Of a DNA stretch of 23,248 bases, positions 14,225-22,114 are shown one piece after another (within the stretch, counting starts at the first letter, position 1; each line of letters opens with the position of its first letter). The position numbers and the translations under genes were made by a program. Under the pieces are notes generated by a model. It saw only the letters and a program-made list of their open reading frames with translations. It ran no database searches and was not told the DNA's origin. Source of the DNA: a virus; the IMG/VR virus record IMGVR_UViG_3300042898_003334, positions 1-23,248 of that record. One strand, 5' to 3'.

Positions 14225-14426
14225 CTGTTCGTCCCCACTTGACTTTTAACCAAATGCGTTCATGTATGTAATAATCCACGCTTAACAACACATGCAATGC
14301 TGTAGCAAAGCCTGCTGAATTTCCTAGATTACCTGTAAACATGTAGGTCCAAAAGATTGTAAACAACCATGCGGTCAATCTATAGGTAAGCATTCTAACT
14401 ACTGTACGTTTTTTTGTTTCGCTCAT
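14217..14426 (-). CDS. DUF2061 small membrane protein
   Basis: This 69-residue protein begins MSETKKRTVVRMLTYRLTAW and has two hydrophobic helices (about 17-33 and 38-50) ahead of YYIHERIWLKVKWG. The basic start followed by a 'YR.TAW' block and the closing HERIW match DUF2061, a small inner-membrane family of unknown function. The ATG at 14424-14426 overlaps the QueE stop by 4 nt; a longer in-frame start would run inside queE. Confidence 0.85.
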   Translation of the reverse strand: MSETKKRTVVRMLTYRLTAWLFTIFWTYMFTGNLGNSAGFATALHVLLSVDYYIHERIWLKVKWGRTDV

Positions 14427-15289
14427 TTGCCCCATCCATTTCCCCACAAGTCCACATGCAATCGTGGTGTGTAATAGTATCCACGCTTGAGTGCCCAGTC
14501 TGCAACATTAACACGATTTTCTGCATAGGGTGCAACCACACCACCTTGTGGCATGACATACACAACACCTTTAAAACCTATTGAACGATATTCTGCTACT
14601 GCACGATCAATTTCATCAAAGTGTGCTTCGCTGTCAATCACAAACTTGAGATACACAGTACCTACATCTTGATATTCTGCCACAATCTTGGGTTTAATTG
14701 CTTCCTCCCACTTCTCTCCACTGGCACTAAGTTTAGGACTTACACTGAATGTAACTTCTCTGCTGGTAAATGGAGGATTCAGCGCCCATTGATCTAAGAA
14801 CAATTTAAATTCTGGAGTTAATTTTTGAGTACCGTTTGTCTCAAATGTAATATTCTTGATACGAAGCATGTGATCATGATTAAGCAAATCTGGATATGCT
14901 CGCTGCCAGCCCAGCAATGGCTCGCCTCCGGTGATCACAAGATGTGTGTCGTTGCCTGTACGATTGGTCCACTTGCGATCAGGAATCAAGTCTAGCATTT
15001 TGTTTACCAGCGCATCAATCTCGTATGTGGGACTGAGTTCTTTGAAGTCCGGATGCCAGCTTGCATAGCTGTCACACCCTGTGTTCACCAGCGGAAGCTC
15101 TTCAAATGTTTTGTACAAGTGTACATTCTTGGCAACTTCGTCTGCTTCTACAGACAGCTCACCGGGCTTGCAACCAAACCCTGCGCAGGTAAAGTTACAG
15201 CCAAATGTTCTCAAAAACACACTGGGTACGCCAATAAAGCGACCTTCGCCTTGTGCAGAATAAAATAATTCACTTACTTTTAGTTTCAT
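14423..15289 (-). CDS. queE: 7-carboxy-7-deazaguanine synthase (QueE), radical SAM
   Basis: This 288-residue protein matches QueE, which rearranges 6-carboxytetrahydropterin to 7-carboxy-7-deazaguanine using S-adenosylmethionine. Visible features are FYSAQGEGRFIG VPSVFLR (9-27), the cluster region GCNFTCAGFGC (C31, C35, C40), a second conserved-looking Cys in NTGCDSYASW (C72), and LVITGGEPLLGWQ (SAM-binding GGE). The cysteine spacing is C-x3-C-x4-C, not the usual C-x3-C-x2-C. I chose ATG 15287-15289, which overlaps the methyltransferase by 20 nt. It works with QueD five genes upstream. Downstream enzymes (QueC and DNA insertion) are not in the window. Confidence 0.92.
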   Translation of the reverse strand: MKLKVSELFYSAQGEGRFIGVPSVFLRTFGCNFTCAGFGCKPGELSVEADEVAKNVHLYKTFEELPLVNTGCDSYASWHPDFKELSPTYEIDALVNKMLDLIPDRKWTNRTGNDTHLVITGGEPLLGWQRAYPDLLNHDHMLRIKNITFETNGTQKLTPEFKLFLDQWALNPPFTSREVTFSVSPKLSASGEKWEEAIKPKIVAEYQDVGTVYLKFVIDSEAHFDEIDRAVAEYRSIGFKGVVYVMPQGGVVAPYAENRVNVADWALKRGYYYTPRLHVDLWGNGWGK

Positions 15290-15884
15290 TTTTAAAATAT
15301 CTTTCAATAACACTACGGGGCCACAAACTCATTCTTCTTGGCAGATGCCCAGGAATCCAATCCTCAATGCTGTCAATTGGAGTTTCAAAGTTGTATGGTG
15401 CCTTGGTAAAATCAACTGATCTAAAATCACCAGTTTGAATGTTACGATTGTTGCCACTGTGATGACTGGTGATCATAACATATTTTACACTACTGCGAAC
15501 TATGTTGTCAAGCACTTTGTCAATATCTTCCAGACTCAAATGGAACAAACAGTCTCGGCAAAACAACATATCAACATCAGGGATAGGGTCAGTGGTCAAA
15601 TCAAACACTCTAAAATCCACATCAGGATAGTCTTTTTTGTTCTGTTCAATCATGAACTCCACAATGTCTCCACCTTGATATTTGAATCCTACTGGAAACT
15701 CAATCAAATTCATCCAACTGTAATCACCACACGGAGCATCAAACATCGATGTTATGTTGTGTCGTTCCAAAAAGCCTGGTAGTTCCTGCCGCAATGGTTC
15801 AGTATAGGCAACGGTACTGCCTGACCCACAAGTGACATCTTGCCAGCGCCTGTGAGTTATAATATCTTCGAATATTTCTTTCAT
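15270..15884 (-). CDS. Class I SAM-dependent methyltransferase
   Basis: This 204-residue protein has a Rossmann-type SAM pocket: motif I FDAPCGDYSWM (48-58), a following YQGGDIV (acidic residue for the ribose), then FDLTTDPIPDVDMLFCRDCL, where the family binds the adenine and positions its substrate. A loop HHSGNNRNIQTGDF follows. The substrate cannot be read from sequence; small-molecule and sugar methylation are both possible. It lies between a glycosyltransferase-like gene (1-nt overlap, TAATG) and QueE. Confidence 0.87.
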   Translation of the reverse strand: MKEIFEDIITHRRWQDVTCGSGSTVAYTEPLRQELPGFLERHNITSMFDAPCGDYSWMNLIEFPVGFKYQGGDIVEFMIEQNKKDYPDVDFRVFDLTTDPIPDVDMLFCRDCLFHLSLEDIDKVLDNIVRSSVKYVMITSHHSGNNRNIQTGDFRSVDFTKAPYNFETPIDSIEDWIPGHLPRRMSLWPRSVIERYFKNETKSK

Positions 15885-17343: not shown

Positions 17344-18191
17344 CAGGCTACTTTCTGCATGCCATGCGGGTTTTGAAATTGTTTCATTTGATTGTTGACA
17401 TCATTTTCTTTGAGTTTGACCCAGGGATCCTGTGTACCTCTAAATACATCAGCAAAGAACTTCATGCTCATGCCGCGTTCTTTTTCCAGATACTGTGCCA
17501 GTTTTGCACACTCAGTGTGCCGCAACTCAATGTTCTGTGTGCTGTGGAAGTCTCTAGGGTCCGATGGATTTCCTTCAAATATCACACGCTTCTTGAATGT
17601 GTCATCTTGATTGTTGCCAGTGAGATCGTATCTATCGTGATCAACCCACACAGGAATACGCTCATAGATATCCAGTAGATACGCTTGTTGGCTAAGCCAT
17701 GCATCGTTCAATTGATGGTGACTCAAATGACCCAGAGCCTTGAGCCAATCTTGAGGCACAATAGGGAAAATACTGTACGGGTGGTCGTTGTGAGTATGAA
17801 ATGCCAATAAACGGAACTGGCCGTCCCATTTCATGATTTCAAGATCCCAGTCCTGAGTCTGCATTACTGCATCGTCGTTCCAGAATACCATCCAGCGACC
17901 ATCGCTGTTGCGAGCCAATTCGTTCACATACTCGTGCAGTCTTCCGTACCCATAAGGTTCAAAACTCAATGCAGTGTATTCGATCTCAGCAGAATCAAAC
18001 CAAGGTTGAATCTTTTCTTCAAAGTGTTTGAGTCCAACTTGATCATCGTTATCGAACCCAAACAAAAATTGAATCTTTTTAAGGTTGCCTGATAGTCTTG
18101 TTAGGCTTTCCAAACTGCGTTCGAGCATGTCTGCCCGCCCACGAGTTGGCAATAGTATTGAAATATCAAATTCAGGGGTTGATTCTATCAT
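17343..18191 (-). CDS. Family 2-like glycosyltransferase
   Basis: This 282-residue protein starts with the GT2-type N-terminus ISILLPTRGRADMLERSLES (about 10-29), binding the nucleotide. It has an acidic GFDNDD stretch, and WMVFWNDDAVMQTQDWD (about 99-115) carries the metal-binding Asp pair. Later NIELRHTECAKL may be part of the acceptor region. GT2 enzymes transfer sugars to lipids, proteins or, in phages, DNA bases. It is coupled to QueD by a 4-nt overlap, which is suggestive but not proof of a DNA-linked role. Confidence 0.83.
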   Translation of the reverse strand: MIESTPEFDISILLPTRGRADMLERSLESLTRLSGNLKKIQFLFGFDNDDQVGLKHFEEKIQPWFDSAEIEYTALSFEPYGYGRLHEYVNELARNSDGRWMVFWNDDAVMQTQDWDLEIMKWDGQFRLLAFHTHNDHPYSIFPIVPQDWLKALGHLSHHQLNDAWLSQQAYLLDIYERIPVWVDHDRYDLTGNNQDDTFKKRVIFEGNPSDPRDFHSTQNIELRHTECAKLAQYLEKERGMSMKFFADVFRGTQDPWVKLKENDVNNQMKQFQNPHGMQKVA

Positions 18192-18694
18192 GAAAATAAA
18201 TCCTCATTCCATTCACGATGACCTTCACGGAAAGCCATGTTGGCTTGTGTTTCTCGTACTTCTACACGATAGCACCACAGACGTTTGCTTTCACCTTCGC
18301 CCCACATGTCCGGAATGTAAACACCATTCACATACTTGTACAGCATATCACTCAATGCTTCACAACCTAGTGCAGGAAGGATTGTTAGTTTGGCTAACTT
18401 GCGGCGTTCCATTTCTTTGTAGAATTCTAGTTCTGGATCATCTGCACTGACTAGGGTAGTGTGATCAAATTGATCTTCTAGGATTTTCTTGAGCTCCTTG
18501 AGTCCGCCATAGTCAGCGGCCCAATTGCGAACATCCAGATCATTGGTGCCAAAGTAAAATTTCATTGAGAAACTGTAACCATGATTTAGATTGCAATGGC
18601 TATCAGCTCTCCACTGTCTGTATGCGCAGGGAAATGCGTCGTGATATTCTTTTGTTGATGTGTACTTGTAGAGTACGGGTTGTAGTTGTGCCAT
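18188..18694 (-). CDS. queD: 6-carboxytetrahydropterin synthase (QueD)
   Basis: This 168-residue protein matches the QueD/PTPS fold, which converts 7,8-dihydroneopterin triphosphate to 6-carboxytetrahydropterin. Catalytic Cys34 and His38 lie in SHCNLNHGYSFSMKF, D77-H78 in EDQFDHTTLV, and a Glu in VRET near the C-terminus. The usual HGH zinc motif reads HGY here, and C23 in FPCAYRQW may replace the first zinc histidine; I recall this from a proteobacterial/phage subfamily. Start ATG 18692-18694 has TAGGAG upstream. It is the first gene of the 16-gene operon. Confidence 0.9.
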   Translation of the reverse strand: MAQLQPVLYKYTSTKEYHDAFPCAYRQWRADSHCNLNHGYSFSMKFYFGTNDLDVRNWAADYGGLKELKKILEDQFDHTTLVSADDPELEFYKEMERRKLAKLTILPALGCEALSDMLYKYVNGVYIPDMWGEGESKRLWCYRVEVRETQANMAFREGHREWNEDLFS

Positions 18695-18816: not shown

Positions 18817-19737
18817 TTACATATCAAAACTGTATCTATGTAAAATTCTATCTTCCATCATTGCTGGATCTTTAAGCACTCGTTTGTGCAATGTCAACAA
18901 TTGCTCCATGATCACAATGTCGCCAGGTTCCCACATGTGTGTGTAGATGAAGTCTTCTTTTAAACAATGAGCTTTTAAAATTTCTAATAATTCAGGATCT
19001 GACGGAATGGTACAATCATTTAAAAAATGAAAATATAGTCCCTTGTTTCCGTTGTATTCATTTACATTTACCAGTGGTGTGGTATATCCTTTTGTTTCGT
19101 GGCCAGTCTTTTCGCCAGTGATAAACTCAAACATCCATGATGGCAGTCCTTCTCCCCATATGGCAGGATTATATTTGAAATGAGCTGTTACTCCTTCACA
19201 TCTTGCTTTTATAGAGTCGTCTAATGCCGCATAAGCTCTTGTGGTGTCCAAAAACGATGTTCCTGTGTCTTTAACCCCCGACACCGCCTGTAGTGCAACA
19301 CCTCGTCTTGGGCCTCTTGTGGCATCCCAGGGACCATTTATATTGTTATGCCAATCTAGATCAGGTTGTGGGAAAAATCCTGTGTCTTTGTTATCTATTT
19401 TTTTCCCAGTTACTCGTTGTACCCAAAATTTATTATCTGGTCCCGAATAGGTAAATGGGTCAGGAACCACATCATGCCAAATGCCCTTTTCATGATTGGC
19501 ACCGGGTTGTAAATTACCATCTGAGTCCCACCAACAGCCGTTCCAGTTAGCAATACCTTTGCCCGAGCGTAAACATAACTTGGCGAAAGGAATTACCTCA
19601 ACTGGTTGGTTTCTAAAAACCACAATCAAGTGGTCGTCGTATATGTCTTTTATTTCTTTGTAGTCTAATTCAGACAATTTAGTAATATCAACATCTAAAA
19701 TTTCTACCCCAACATTGTCCAAGTGCTTGATTTTCAT
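18817..19737 (-). CDS. TauD-like Fe(II)/2-oxoglutarate dioxygenase with altered metal motif
   Basis: This 306-residue protein follows TauD-family order. The N-terminal GVEILDVDITKL, then IYDDHLIVVFRNQ, a block GVALQAVSG...TSFLDTTRAYAAL, and the C-terminal GDIVIMEQLLTLHKRV with distal iron ligand H284 and 2-oxoglutarate-binding Arg near R297 (RILHRYSF) are all present. At the usual HxD site it reads DWHNN (H130, N132), so the acidic iron ligand is replaced by Asn. In related halogenases loss of the acid frees a metal site. Start ATG 19735-19737 has TAGGAG upstream. It lies alone between two 50-bp repeats. Substrate unknown. Confidence 0.8.
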   Translation of the reverse strand: MKIKHLDNVGVEILDVDITKLSELDYKEIKDIYDDHLIVVFRNQPVEVIPFAKLCLRSGKGIANWNGCWWDSDGNLQPGANHEKGIWHDVVPDPFTYSGPDNKFWVQRVTGKKIDNKDTGFFPQPDLDWHNNINGPWDATRGPRRGVALQAVSGVKDTGTSFLDTTRAYAALDDSIKARCEGVTAHFKYNPAIWGEGLPSWMFEFITGEKTGHETKGYTTPLVNVNEYNGNKGLYFHFLNDCTIPSDPELLEILKAHCLKEDFIYTHMWEPGDIVIMEQLLTLHKRVLKDPAMMEDRILHRYSFDM

Positions 19738-19825: not shown

Positions 19826-19859
19826 TATTTAGTTGTGGGTATTACTGTGTAACTAAATA
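19826..19859. promoter_or_regulatory. Divergent pair of ACTAAATA late-type boxes
   Basis: ACTAAATA occurs on the minus strand (19826-19833, facing the dioxygenase) and on the plus strand (19852-19859, 5 nt before the ATG of the radical SAM gene). The dioxygenase could therefore have both early- and late-type promoters. The plus-strand copy would give a transcript starting at the ATG. Confidence 0.6.
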
Positions 19860-19864
19860 ATTGC

Positions 19865-20719
19865 ATGTCTAAAATACACATGAGAGGTTTAGAATTTTAC
19901 ATTACCAACGTGTGTAATCTAACATGTGAAAATTGTAGAAGTTTTAATAATTATAAATTTTCTGGCCTCTATGAATTTGATCAACCAGCGATACAAGCCT
20001 GGGCAGAAAAAATTCATATCACTGATATCTCAATATTAGGTGGTGAACCAACTTTACATCCCAGACTTGAACAATGGGTTGCTGGGTTAAGAGCTGCCTG
20101 GCCCTTGTCCAATATTCGATTAACTACCAACGGCACATATCTTAACAAGGTTCGCGGCCTGCATGATATGCTTGCAAAGTATCGCTGTAACATTCAGATA
20201 TCCTCTCACAGTTACGAATTACGCAATTTGATTGCAGATGAAATGTTTGCGGCCTTTGGCGAATGTGAAATACTTCCAATGAAACCAACTTCATCACAAC
20301 ACTATCAAGGAGTGAATAGTGTCTTTTTTAAAACTGATAAAGGCGTTGTAATAGATTTACAAAATAACAATTTTTTACAAGATATTTGTTTTGTTGACGA
20401 TCAATTTACTTTAAGAAACAATGACCCTGTTAAAGCACACAACAGTTGTGGTATAGCCAATTGTCATCACATGATAGACAATAAAATTTACAAATGTTCT
20501 GTGGTAGGGTTATTGCCAGAATTTTTAAAACAACAAAAAAAAGACACAACAAATTTATTACCGTATCATGGATTGCCAGTTGAAGAAGTCACGCAAGAAA
20601 CTATCGACCAATTGGTTAATCCAATGCCTCATTGTAGTATATGTCCTGAATCTAATAGATACCAACCTATCAAATCCTTCTTGAAAAAAGATCTAAAATT
20701 TAGTAAGGATACTCTTTAG
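19865..20719 (+). CDS. Radical SAM protein with SPASM-like cysteine-rich C-terminus
   Basis: This 284-residue protein has the radical SAM motif TNVCNLTCENCRSF (C17, C21, C24), a GGE motif ILGGEPTLHP (57-66) and RLTTNGTYLN. The C-terminal half has further cysteines C195, C200, C211, C257 and C260 (NSCGIANCHH, KCSVVG, HCSICPES), as in SPASM/twitch enzymes with extra iron-sulfur clusters that modify peptides or sugars. The ATG sits 5 nt after ACTAAATA with no Shine-Dalgarno. Its end overlaps the converging beta-rich gene by 20 nt. Substrate unknown; the adjacent small protein is one candidate partner. Confidence 0.85.
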   Translation: MSKIHMRGLEFYITNVCNLTCENCRSFNNYKFSGLYEFDQPAIQAWAEKIHITDISILGGEPTLHPRLEQWVAGLRAAWPLSNIRLTTNGTYLNKVRGLHDMLAKYRCNIQISSHSYELRNLIADEMFAAFGECEILPMKPTSSQHYQGVNSVFFKTDKGVVIDLQNNNFLQDICFVDDQFTLRNNDPVKAHNSCGIANCHHMIDNKIYKCSVVGLLPEFLKQQKKDTTNLLPYHGLPVEEVTQETIDQLVNPMPHCSICPESNRYQPIKSFLKKDLKFSKDTL

Positions 20720-21125
20720 TCACCCAATAAGATACAGGGGTATAAAAATTAAATGTTAATACACCATCACACCCTACCACTGTATTAAACTCTTCCTCTG
20801 TCTGCTCACCGAATCCATTGAAGTCGTGAATGTATTTTCCTTTGATCATTGGCAATACATCAATGTTGTTGAAATTTAATTTTTTAATTTCTAACACAGT
20901 ATCCGAATCATCTAAGGTGTCTATTAATTTTCTTTTGCCATCAATAACTAATCGAAACACATGTTGAGTTACAACAGTTTCACTGTATGCAACATCAACA
21001 GTCATTGGAATATCACTAGAACTGCCACTGAAATAACATTGGTCATCTATTAGAATATCAACATTTAGTGGGCGAGCTGATGACATTAAAAATTCAAGTT
21101 TAACTGTTTTTGATGATTGTGTCAT
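20700..21125 (-). CDS. Beta-rich protein of unknown function (141 aa)
   Basis: The frame begins MTQSSKTVKLEFLMSSARPL and shows alternating hydrophobic residues throughout, suggesting a beta-sandwich. A Gly/Asn-rich turn IHDFNGFGEQTEEEF and a conserved-looking end FYTPVSYWVTKEYPY stand out. It may be a ligand- or carbohydrate-binding module, but I do not recognise it. The ATG overlaps the stop of the acyl-CoA-dehydrogenase-like gene by 4 nt, so the two are translated together. Confidence 0.75.
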   Translation of the reverse strand: MTQSSKTVKLEFLMSSARPLNVDILIDDQCYFSGSSSDIPMTVDVAYSETVVTQHVFRLVIDGKRKLIDTLDDSDTVLEIKKLNFNNIDVLPMIKGKYIHDFNGFGEQTEEEFNTVVGCDGVLTFNFYTPVSYWVTKEYPY

Positions 21126-22099
21126 AGTGTGTCGATATTTGCAAATTGGCTCAATAGTACTTGTTCATAGTATGGTTTTCCATGCGATGACCAAACAAGG
21201 GCATCTCTAAATCGTTGACTAAATTGAGTGTTACTATCATAGAACCGGCTGCTGCCAATTTCGATAGTTAATTTAAGCATATTGGTCAAACATTGTTTGG
21301 TTTGGGTGTATTGAGTATCGTGCCAAGTCCAATATTTTTGATCCAGTGTGTGTAGTTTAGCAAGATCAAAGTTATCACTCCAACTTCTCTTTAACAGAAT
21401 CAATTGAGATTCAATGGGTTTTAATTGATACTCGAGATGATAATTTTTTTGAATTGAAATTTGCAGAAGAGCATGATAAAGACCAACTGCACATCCTAAA
21501 AAATTAGTTAGGAATCCATACTTTAAAAAACTTAACAAGGAGTTTTGCGAGTCTTGTATGCAAAATGGTCCTTGATGCAATATCCATTCTTTGGGAAAAT
21601 CCTGGGTGTCTAACATTAAACTCATTGGACTAGCCACCTTTAGCCCGATTGGGTTATATCCATTGTTTTCAATTTTATGATCGACTTCTTTGAGATCAAT
21701 GAATAATAAACAGCGAGTTGGATTGCTATGATGTCCAACTTTGCAAACAAGATAGTCTGCTTGATGAATGGAAGTAATCCAATGTTTTGTTCCTGAGATA
21801 CCATGATTATCTATTTTGATAGTATCAATGTCATGATACACACTAAAAGACCCTAGTTGTTCCTGGTACTGATAATTTAGCTTATTAGAAACATTTAACG
21901 AGTTTCTTGAACTTTGATGCTGATTAATACAGTGAGCAATTCCTACATCAATTTTGGCAACTTGATAAAGATTTTCAAACCATTGCTGACACTCACTTGG
22001 AGTTGCTGTTACAAAATCAAGATCAAAATATGGTTTTAGTTCTACAAGAGTGTCTTTATCAAACCCTGTAGGTCGATAGTCATTGATAGGAAAGATCAT
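21122..22099 (-). CDS. Acyl-CoA-dehydrogenase-fold flavoprotein (divergent)
   Basis: Segments match acyl-CoA dehydrogenase-fold proteins in order: an N-terminal helical part AKIDVGIAHCINQHQSS (48-64), the middle-domain signature ISGTKHWITSIHQADYLVC (101-119), and a C-terminal EIGSSRFYDSNTQFSQRFRD (280-299) followed by ALVWSSHG. At 325 residues it is shorter than the usual 380 or so. No clear catalytic Glu can be placed. It could be a flavin monooxygenase of the DszC/group D type or a pseudoenzyme. It has no Shine-Dalgarno; AATAAATA lies 7 nt before the ATG. It is coupled to the beta-rich gene. Confidence 0.7.
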   Translation of the reverse strand: MIFPINDYRPTGFDKDTLVELKPYFDLDFVTATPSECQQWFENLYQVAKIDVGIAHCINQHQSSRNSLNVSNKLNYQYQEQLGSFSVYHDIDTIKIDNHGISGTKHWITSIHQADYLVCKVGHHSNPTRCLLFIDLKEVDHKIENNGYNPIGLKVASPMSLMLDTQDFPKEWILHQGPFCIQDSQNSLLSFLKYGFLTNFLGCAVGLYHALLQISIQKNYHLEYQLKPIESQLILLKRSWSDNFDLAKLHTLDQKYWTWHDTQYTQTKQCLTNMLKLTIEIGSSRFYDSNTQFSQRFRDALVWSSHGKPYYEQVLLSQFANIDTL

Positions 22100-22106
22100 T
22101 GAGAAA

Positions 22107-22114
22107 TATTTATT
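22107..22114 (-). promoter_or_regulatory. Late-type promoter box AATAAATA
   Basis: AATAAATA on the minus strand lies 7 nt before the ATG at 22099 and 3 nt after the HIT stop codon. It is the only start signal visible for the acyl-CoA-dehydrogenase-like gene. Confidence 0.55.

Follow-up and report, generated by a model that had tools for sequence, protein, structure and literature searches.

In a 23.2-kb fragment from IMG/VR of a virus of aquatic bacteria (hereafter the window, meaning the whole of this stretch), we found a compact cassette whose core comprises a gene for a radical SAM protein (rSAM) and a convergent gene for a small protein with a predicted beta-sandwich fold. These two genes are inherited together in a convergent arrangement, and the gene upstream of the beta-sandwich gene is exchanged between lineages. 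We tentatively favor a reading in which the beta-sandwich protein is an accessory (adaptor) subunit of tailoring enzymes, deployed from a horizontally acquired late cassette. The features of the cassette, given by their positions in the window, are as follows:

19853..19859, plus strand: CTAAATA late-type box, ending 5 nt before the ATG of the rSAM gene
19865..20719, plus strand: radical SAM protein of 284 aa, recognized by the Pfam Radical_SAM domain and its cysteine pattern
20700..20719, no strand assigned: stretch of 20 nt in which the 3' ends of the two converging genes overlap, from the ORF coordinates
20700..21125, minus strand: beta-rich protein of 141 aa, a predicted CBM60-like beta-sandwich belonging to a family of rSAM partners, from an AF2 model and neighborhood statistics
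21122..22099, minus strand: divergent ACAD-like protein of 325 aa in a swappable slot of the cassette, from weak collinear middle-domain similarity and a relative in contig L002
22107..22113, minus strand: ATAAATA late-type box, ending 7 nt before the ATG of the ACAD-like gene
19853..22113, no strand assigned: low-GC cassette running from box to box, probably imported (34% versus 42% GC)

The three ORFs, the overlap of their stops, the late-type boxes and the lack of a Shine-Dalgarno sequence are exactly as an earlier note on this DNA had described them, and so is the coupled pair, in which the stop of the ACAD-like gene overlaps the start of the beta gene as ATGA. No purine-rich Shine-Dalgarno sequence lies between box and ATG at either the rSAM or the ACAD-like start of the window. 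In the homologous loci of L003, L005 and L007 a late-type box likewise precedes the start of the rSAM gene by 5-6 nt, and another lies upstream of the ACAD-like homologue of L002; the presence of the boxes at equivalent places in these four contigs indicates that they are no chance match. T4-type late transcripts start a few nucleotides past the box. With the boxes 5 and 7 nt from the starts, a T4-type late transcript would therefore be almost leaderless, which is in keeping with the absent Shine-Dalgarno sequence, and the boxes themselves point to expression late in infection.

The trio stands out as a sharp low-GC island (34.3% versus 42.1% GC in the rest of the window), a feature that the earlier note had not mentioned: every other stretch of 2235 nt in the window has a higher GC content, and the edges of the island lie close to both late boxes. 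Judging by the common low GC content and the flanking boxes, the three genes may have arrived in this genome together. In L003, L004, L005 and L007, too, the rSAM/beta cassette is the lowest-GC stretch of its contig, as is the lone ACAD-like gene in L002, which has its own box. The simplest reading is that each low-GC cassette would be an imported unit bringing along its own late-type promoters, with the 2.2-kb island of the window being a horizontally acquired cassette of two convergent, late-expressed and near-leaderless operons.

The rSAM protein is a member of the Radical SAM superfamily: it scores 32.1 bits with PF04055 (Radical_SAM) against the Pfam cut-off of 29.5 and displays the CxxxCxxC motif at residues 17-24 (C17, C21 and C24). 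Four more cysteines are found in the C-terminal part (C195, C211, C257 and C260), and all seven are invariant in 12 relatives. As judged from the sequence, the C-terminal cysteines are consistent with a SPASM/twitch-like layout compatible with one auxiliary cluster. The description of the protein as SPASM-like by the earlier note stands insofar as the C-terminal cysteines are invariant; however, the SPASM-domain model gives no match, NF033640 (N_Twi_rSAM) is not reached (23.6 bits versus a cut-off of 170), and no equivalog or subfamily model of NCBIfam scores above its cut-off. It shares with the Twitch/SPASM rSAMs (NF033640, MoaA and peptide maturases) the CxxxCxxC core, the Radical_SAM domain and the four C-terminal cysteines, but differs from them in that its partner is a beta-sandwich protein and not a precursor peptide. 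PADLOC reports a match of the same protein to the prokaryotic viperin, pVip (E 4.8e-9). The likeness to pVip is that of the generic rSAM core, whereas the C-terminal cysteine set is typical of SPASM/twitch proteins; with NF038283 scoring 28.5 against an equivalog cut-off of 180, we rejected an identity as viperin.

A pattern scan showed that relatives of this rSAM are encoded by at least 439 viral stretches, and an IscU-like gene is found within three genes of the rSAM in 28 of 80 loci. The nearest relative in a cultured phage comes from the cyanophage S-SCSM2R, where it sits among genes for five glycosyltransferases, two 2OG-Fe(II) oxygenases and one inosamine amidinotransferase; an HMM search detected no beta domain in this cluster.

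Convergent rSAM/beta genes are present in four divergent phage lineages, namely those of the window, L003/L004, L005 and L007, loci that were ascertained via the rSAM search and among which L003 and L004 are near-identical. The 3' ends of the two genes overlap by 20 nt in the window, 4 nt in L003, 23 nt in L005 and 53 nt in L007, and the rSAM of L003/L004 is 60% identical to that of the window. The four lineages form one clade both in a tree of 55 rSAM sequences (support 98/89) and in a tree of 51 beta proteins (support 100/99), in the latter of which the row for L174 is a wrong 41-aa fragment whose placement is disregarded. The branching within the clade, ((window,L003),(L005,L007)), is identical in both trees, and L006, the next rSAM relative outside it, has no adjacent beta gene. 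The slot upstream of the beta gene holds the ACAD-like gene in the window, a tRNA-Leu followed by other ORFs, among them a small unassigned one, in L003, and in L005 and L007 a common, ATGA-coupled ORF that is called glycosyltransferase-like by a VTEK-like motif only, with no family match. At the level of whole contigs the co-occurrence of window-type rSAMs and beta proteins is partial (5/34 and 7/30), as is to be expected if the beta protein pairs with many kinds of enzymes. Different rSAM/beta cassettes are also seen beside the same uvsX-like recombinase gene in L005 (805-4094), L007 (2884-6286) and L175 (2925-6014), marking a cassette hot spot.

A search with a degenerate DNA pattern and an HMM recovered the beta family in about 35 further contigs; among cultured phages there was no usable match, with the hits at E 0.4-0.9 being chance. 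Most of the contigs carry a copy at a fixed place, in the order ClpA-like, a protein of ~230 aa, one of 54 aa, the 121-aa YDGSS-motif protein, beta, nucleotidyltransferase-like and GT-like. In nearly all contigs the conserved ~121-aa protein with its YDGSS/NYYRG motif is encoded ahead of the beta gene at this place (for instance L122 4263-4625, plus strand); it matches PHROG 13657 (E 3e-6). These fixed-place copies are usually without an adjoining rSAM, an exception being L096, where a Twitch rSAM lies 23 nt downstream.

The beta-rich protein of the window matches no Pfam, PHROG or NCBIfam model, in agreement with the earlier note's label of unknown family; its own family is a large one among phages. 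Its AF2 model, obtained from an alignment of five sequences, is a beta-sandwich (pLDDT 80.7, pTM 0.77). The best structural match by VIA-align is vCBM60 (PDB 2xfd and 2xhh) with a Z of 9.8, the next match having 5.8; 103 of 109 residues superpose with an rmsd of 3.0 A, and Foldseek gives an E of 3e-3 for the same comparison. Three proteins without a name, from uncultured phages, also match the model, with E values of 1e-8 to 4e-6. The protein is hence predicted to have the CBM60 fold; as neither it nor anything else in the window matches PF16841 (CBM60), we class it as CBM60-like in fold only and not as a CBM60 member. It resembles the Ca-dependent CBM60 and CBM36 modules in the predicted fold across the whole domain and in being a small accessory domain that accompanies an enzyme or is fused to it, whereas its identity to them is 7-8% and their partners are xylanases, its own being radical SAM and other tailoring enzymes. 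Within the family certain polar loops are conserved, and G, K and W residues occupy invariant positions. The fixed copy has a conserved HDFNG/GCNG loop; many of the rSAM-linked copies have it only in degraded form, and sugar binding may therefore not be conserved.

Second copies of the beta gene, which were found by the beta profile and not through rSAM, were examined together with their flanks. Most of them adjoin rSAM genes, mostly overlapping them: of the 12 non-fixed copies in 11 contigs, 9 have a Radical_SAM domain no more than 800 bp away, where random placement gives a mean of 1.18 (P<=1e-5), and none of the 10 fixed-place copies has one. Since some of the second-copy contigs are related (G016/G026 and G002/G045), this corresponds to about seven independent rSAM-linked configurations. 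The neighbor is, by Pfam or NCBIfam, a B12-rSAM in L174 and L175, an rSAM without a B12 match in L177, and a Twitch or SPASM rSAM in L180, L181 and L183; those of L096, L181 and L183 reach NF033640 (Twitch-rSAM). In L086, found by the beta search, a SPASM-type rSAM overlaps the beta gene by 1 nt. In L176 the two are fused in a 664-aa ORF with a B12-binding domain (82-160), a Radical_SAM domain (211-376) and a C-terminal beta domain from about residue 500; an exact-pattern scan found no further copies of this fusion. Other copies follow an amidinotransferase-like gene, in L179 with an E of 8e-4 to arginine:glycine amidinotransferase and in L178 by resemblance only. A B12-rSAM, a beta gene and an IscA-like gene occur in a row in L174 (3387-5867) and L017 (9187-11462). 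Several contigs are very rich in rSAMs, G012, G016, G029 and G045 having 12-19 Radical_SAM hits each in 213-349 kb.

These neighborhoods bear on whether the beta protein might be a virion protein, such as a lectin-like decoration of the tail or head, with the rSAM and ACAD-like genes being independent cargo in the same hypervariable spot. Its fixed-place copy is near-constant in these phages beside the YDGSS-motif protein and the ClpA-like gene, and cargo does cluster in hot spots, as in the cassettes of L005, L007 and L175 that adjoin the uvsX-like gene. However, the extra copies adjoin rSAMs far above chance while the fixed ones do not, the co-inheritance persists across rSAM divergence down to ~40% identity, and an rSAM-beta fusion exists in L176. 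Moreover, the window protein has no PHROG structural match, and its relatives match known structural families no better than chance (e.g., a tail assembly chaperone at E 0.1). We consider a virion protein with unrelated cargo unlikely; as for the known structural protein that the earlier note had named as a refutation, the predicted fold matches CBM60 and no known head or tail protein.

The enzyme fusion, the neighbors of unrelated chemistry and the fold of a sugar-binding module lead us to favor the adaptor reading. In this reading the beta protein would be a dedicated adaptor subunit. It would bind the acceptor, for which a glycan or glycosylated molecule is the most plausible candidate, and hold it out to the matching tailoring enzyme much as a CBM serves the catalytic domain to which it belongs; the swappable enzyme slot would in this phage be filled by the ACAD-like flavoprotein. 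We infer that the rSAM and the beta protein form a physical complex, that the acceptor is a glycan and that the ACAD-like protein may act on the same molecule. The case for a glycan is helped by the glycosyltransferase/oxygenase/amidinotransferase block of S-SCSM2R, with a further hint from the amidinotransferase-like neighbor in L179. A more sweeping and more doubtful proposition is that, in large T4-type phages of aquatic settings, a family of small proteins with the CBM60 fold would provide interchangeable recognition subunits to rSAMs (Twitch, SPASM and B12) and other tailoring enzymes. Every extra copy would have an enzyme to itself, and the target would be a glycoconjugate of the phage or the host, modified late in infection by a hitherto undescribed two-component system of adaptor and radical enzyme.

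Alternatively, the beta protein might be the substrate itself, a small virion or secreted protein modified post-translationally by the rSAM and other enzymes in the manner of a maturase and its precursor. Maturases and their substrates are usually encoded in just this way, with a Twitch/SPASM rSAM beside a small protein; peptide maturases are among the weak NCBIfam matches of these rSAMs, and the beta family's polar loops and its invariant G, K and W could be the modified sites. On the other hand, a domain fused to the C-terminus of an enzyme, as in L176, would be unusual for a substrate, as would partners of chemistries as unrelated as those of amidinotransferase-like, ACAD-like and B12-rSAM proteins. 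The beta protein is modeled as a compactly folded sandwich that has neither leader nor core peptide, which would likewise be unusual, its fixed-place copies are without an adjacent rSAM (0/10), and 29 of the 34 contigs with such a copy have no close relative of the window rSAM. A role as substrate hence appears somewhat unlikely.

Our literature search returned no description of an association between rSAMs and such beta proteins, and no function for the radical SAM genes of these phages, of which there are up to 19 per contig. The variable regions of pelagimyophages carry rSAM cassettes for which no function was given (PMC7029224), and rSAMs of Lake Baikal phages were linked to PQQ (PMC7678222). 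The parts of the cassette are of known kinds, while the pairing of a phage rSAM with a partner of the CBM60 fold appears to be undescribed. A recurrent partner, in one case fused to the enzyme, offers a handle on what some phage rSAMs act on: were it an adaptor that binds glycans, a phage program of chemically unusual glycan tailoring would be indicated, and were it the substrate, a class of rSAM substrates made up of folded proteins would come to light.

The ACAD-like protein of the window has no Pfam match and scores 13.8 bits with NF045552 against an NCBIfam cut-off of 470; its relative in L002 scores 12.2 with PF02770 against a cut-off of 33.3. An hhalign comparison of residues 89-175 with eight ACADs gives a weak match to the middle domain (Prob 54%, P 1.3e-4), as against a Prob of 0.3% in a control comparison with the rSAM, and the C-terminal half weakly matches a C2 oxygenase. 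It weakly resembles the group-D flavin monooxygenases and acyl-CoA dehydrogenases in this collinear middle domain (SGTKHWITS..AD), but at 325 aa it is shorter and lacks the TEP..GSD flavin motif. The AF2 model, from two sequences, has a pLDDT of 32.7. The ACAD fold assigned by the earlier note is thus plausible though weakly supported, no curated family being reached.

The L002 protein (68% identity) is its single relative in the IMG/VR viral collection, and a pattern scan of bacterial genomes found none. That the ACAD-like flavoprotein, the rSAM and the beta protein form one pathway acting on one molecule is suggested by what the three have in common, a low-GC island with two boxes, and by the ATGA coupling of the ACAD-like and beta genes. 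Against this, the L002 contig has neither partner, and its ACAD-like gene is itself a solitary low-GC gene preceded by a box. Nor does the gene occur in any of 38 contigs that carry a member of the rSAM or beta family, one match of 25 aa that contained a stop having been discounted. Such a three-member pathway is in our view quite improbable. The trio that the earlier note had regarded as a module is accordingly not conserved, and homologues of all three were not found together outside the window; what survives of that proposal is the co-inherited rSAM/beta pair and the linkage of the beta family to several kinds of rSAM, including a fusion. The simplest view of the ACAD-like gene is that the cassette of this phage carries it as an exchangeable passenger, whose product may act on the same molecule as the pair. 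In L002 it directly precedes a QueD-like gene.

Elsewhere in the window, a 662-aa B12-binding rSAM is encoded at 445-2433 on the minus strand (Radical_SAM E 2e-16, B12-binding E 2e-6); it is related to the beta-linked B12-rSAMs and has a long C-terminal extension, in which, as in the rest of the protein, an HMM search found no fused beta domain. QueE-like and QueD-like genes at 14423-15313 and 18188-18694 on the minus strand (PHROG E 7e-55 and 3e-35) might be involved in 7-deazaguanine DNA modification. Just outside the cassette, the minus strand encodes a 2-oxoglutarate dioxygenase of the TauD family at 18817-19737 (Pfam E 3e-24).
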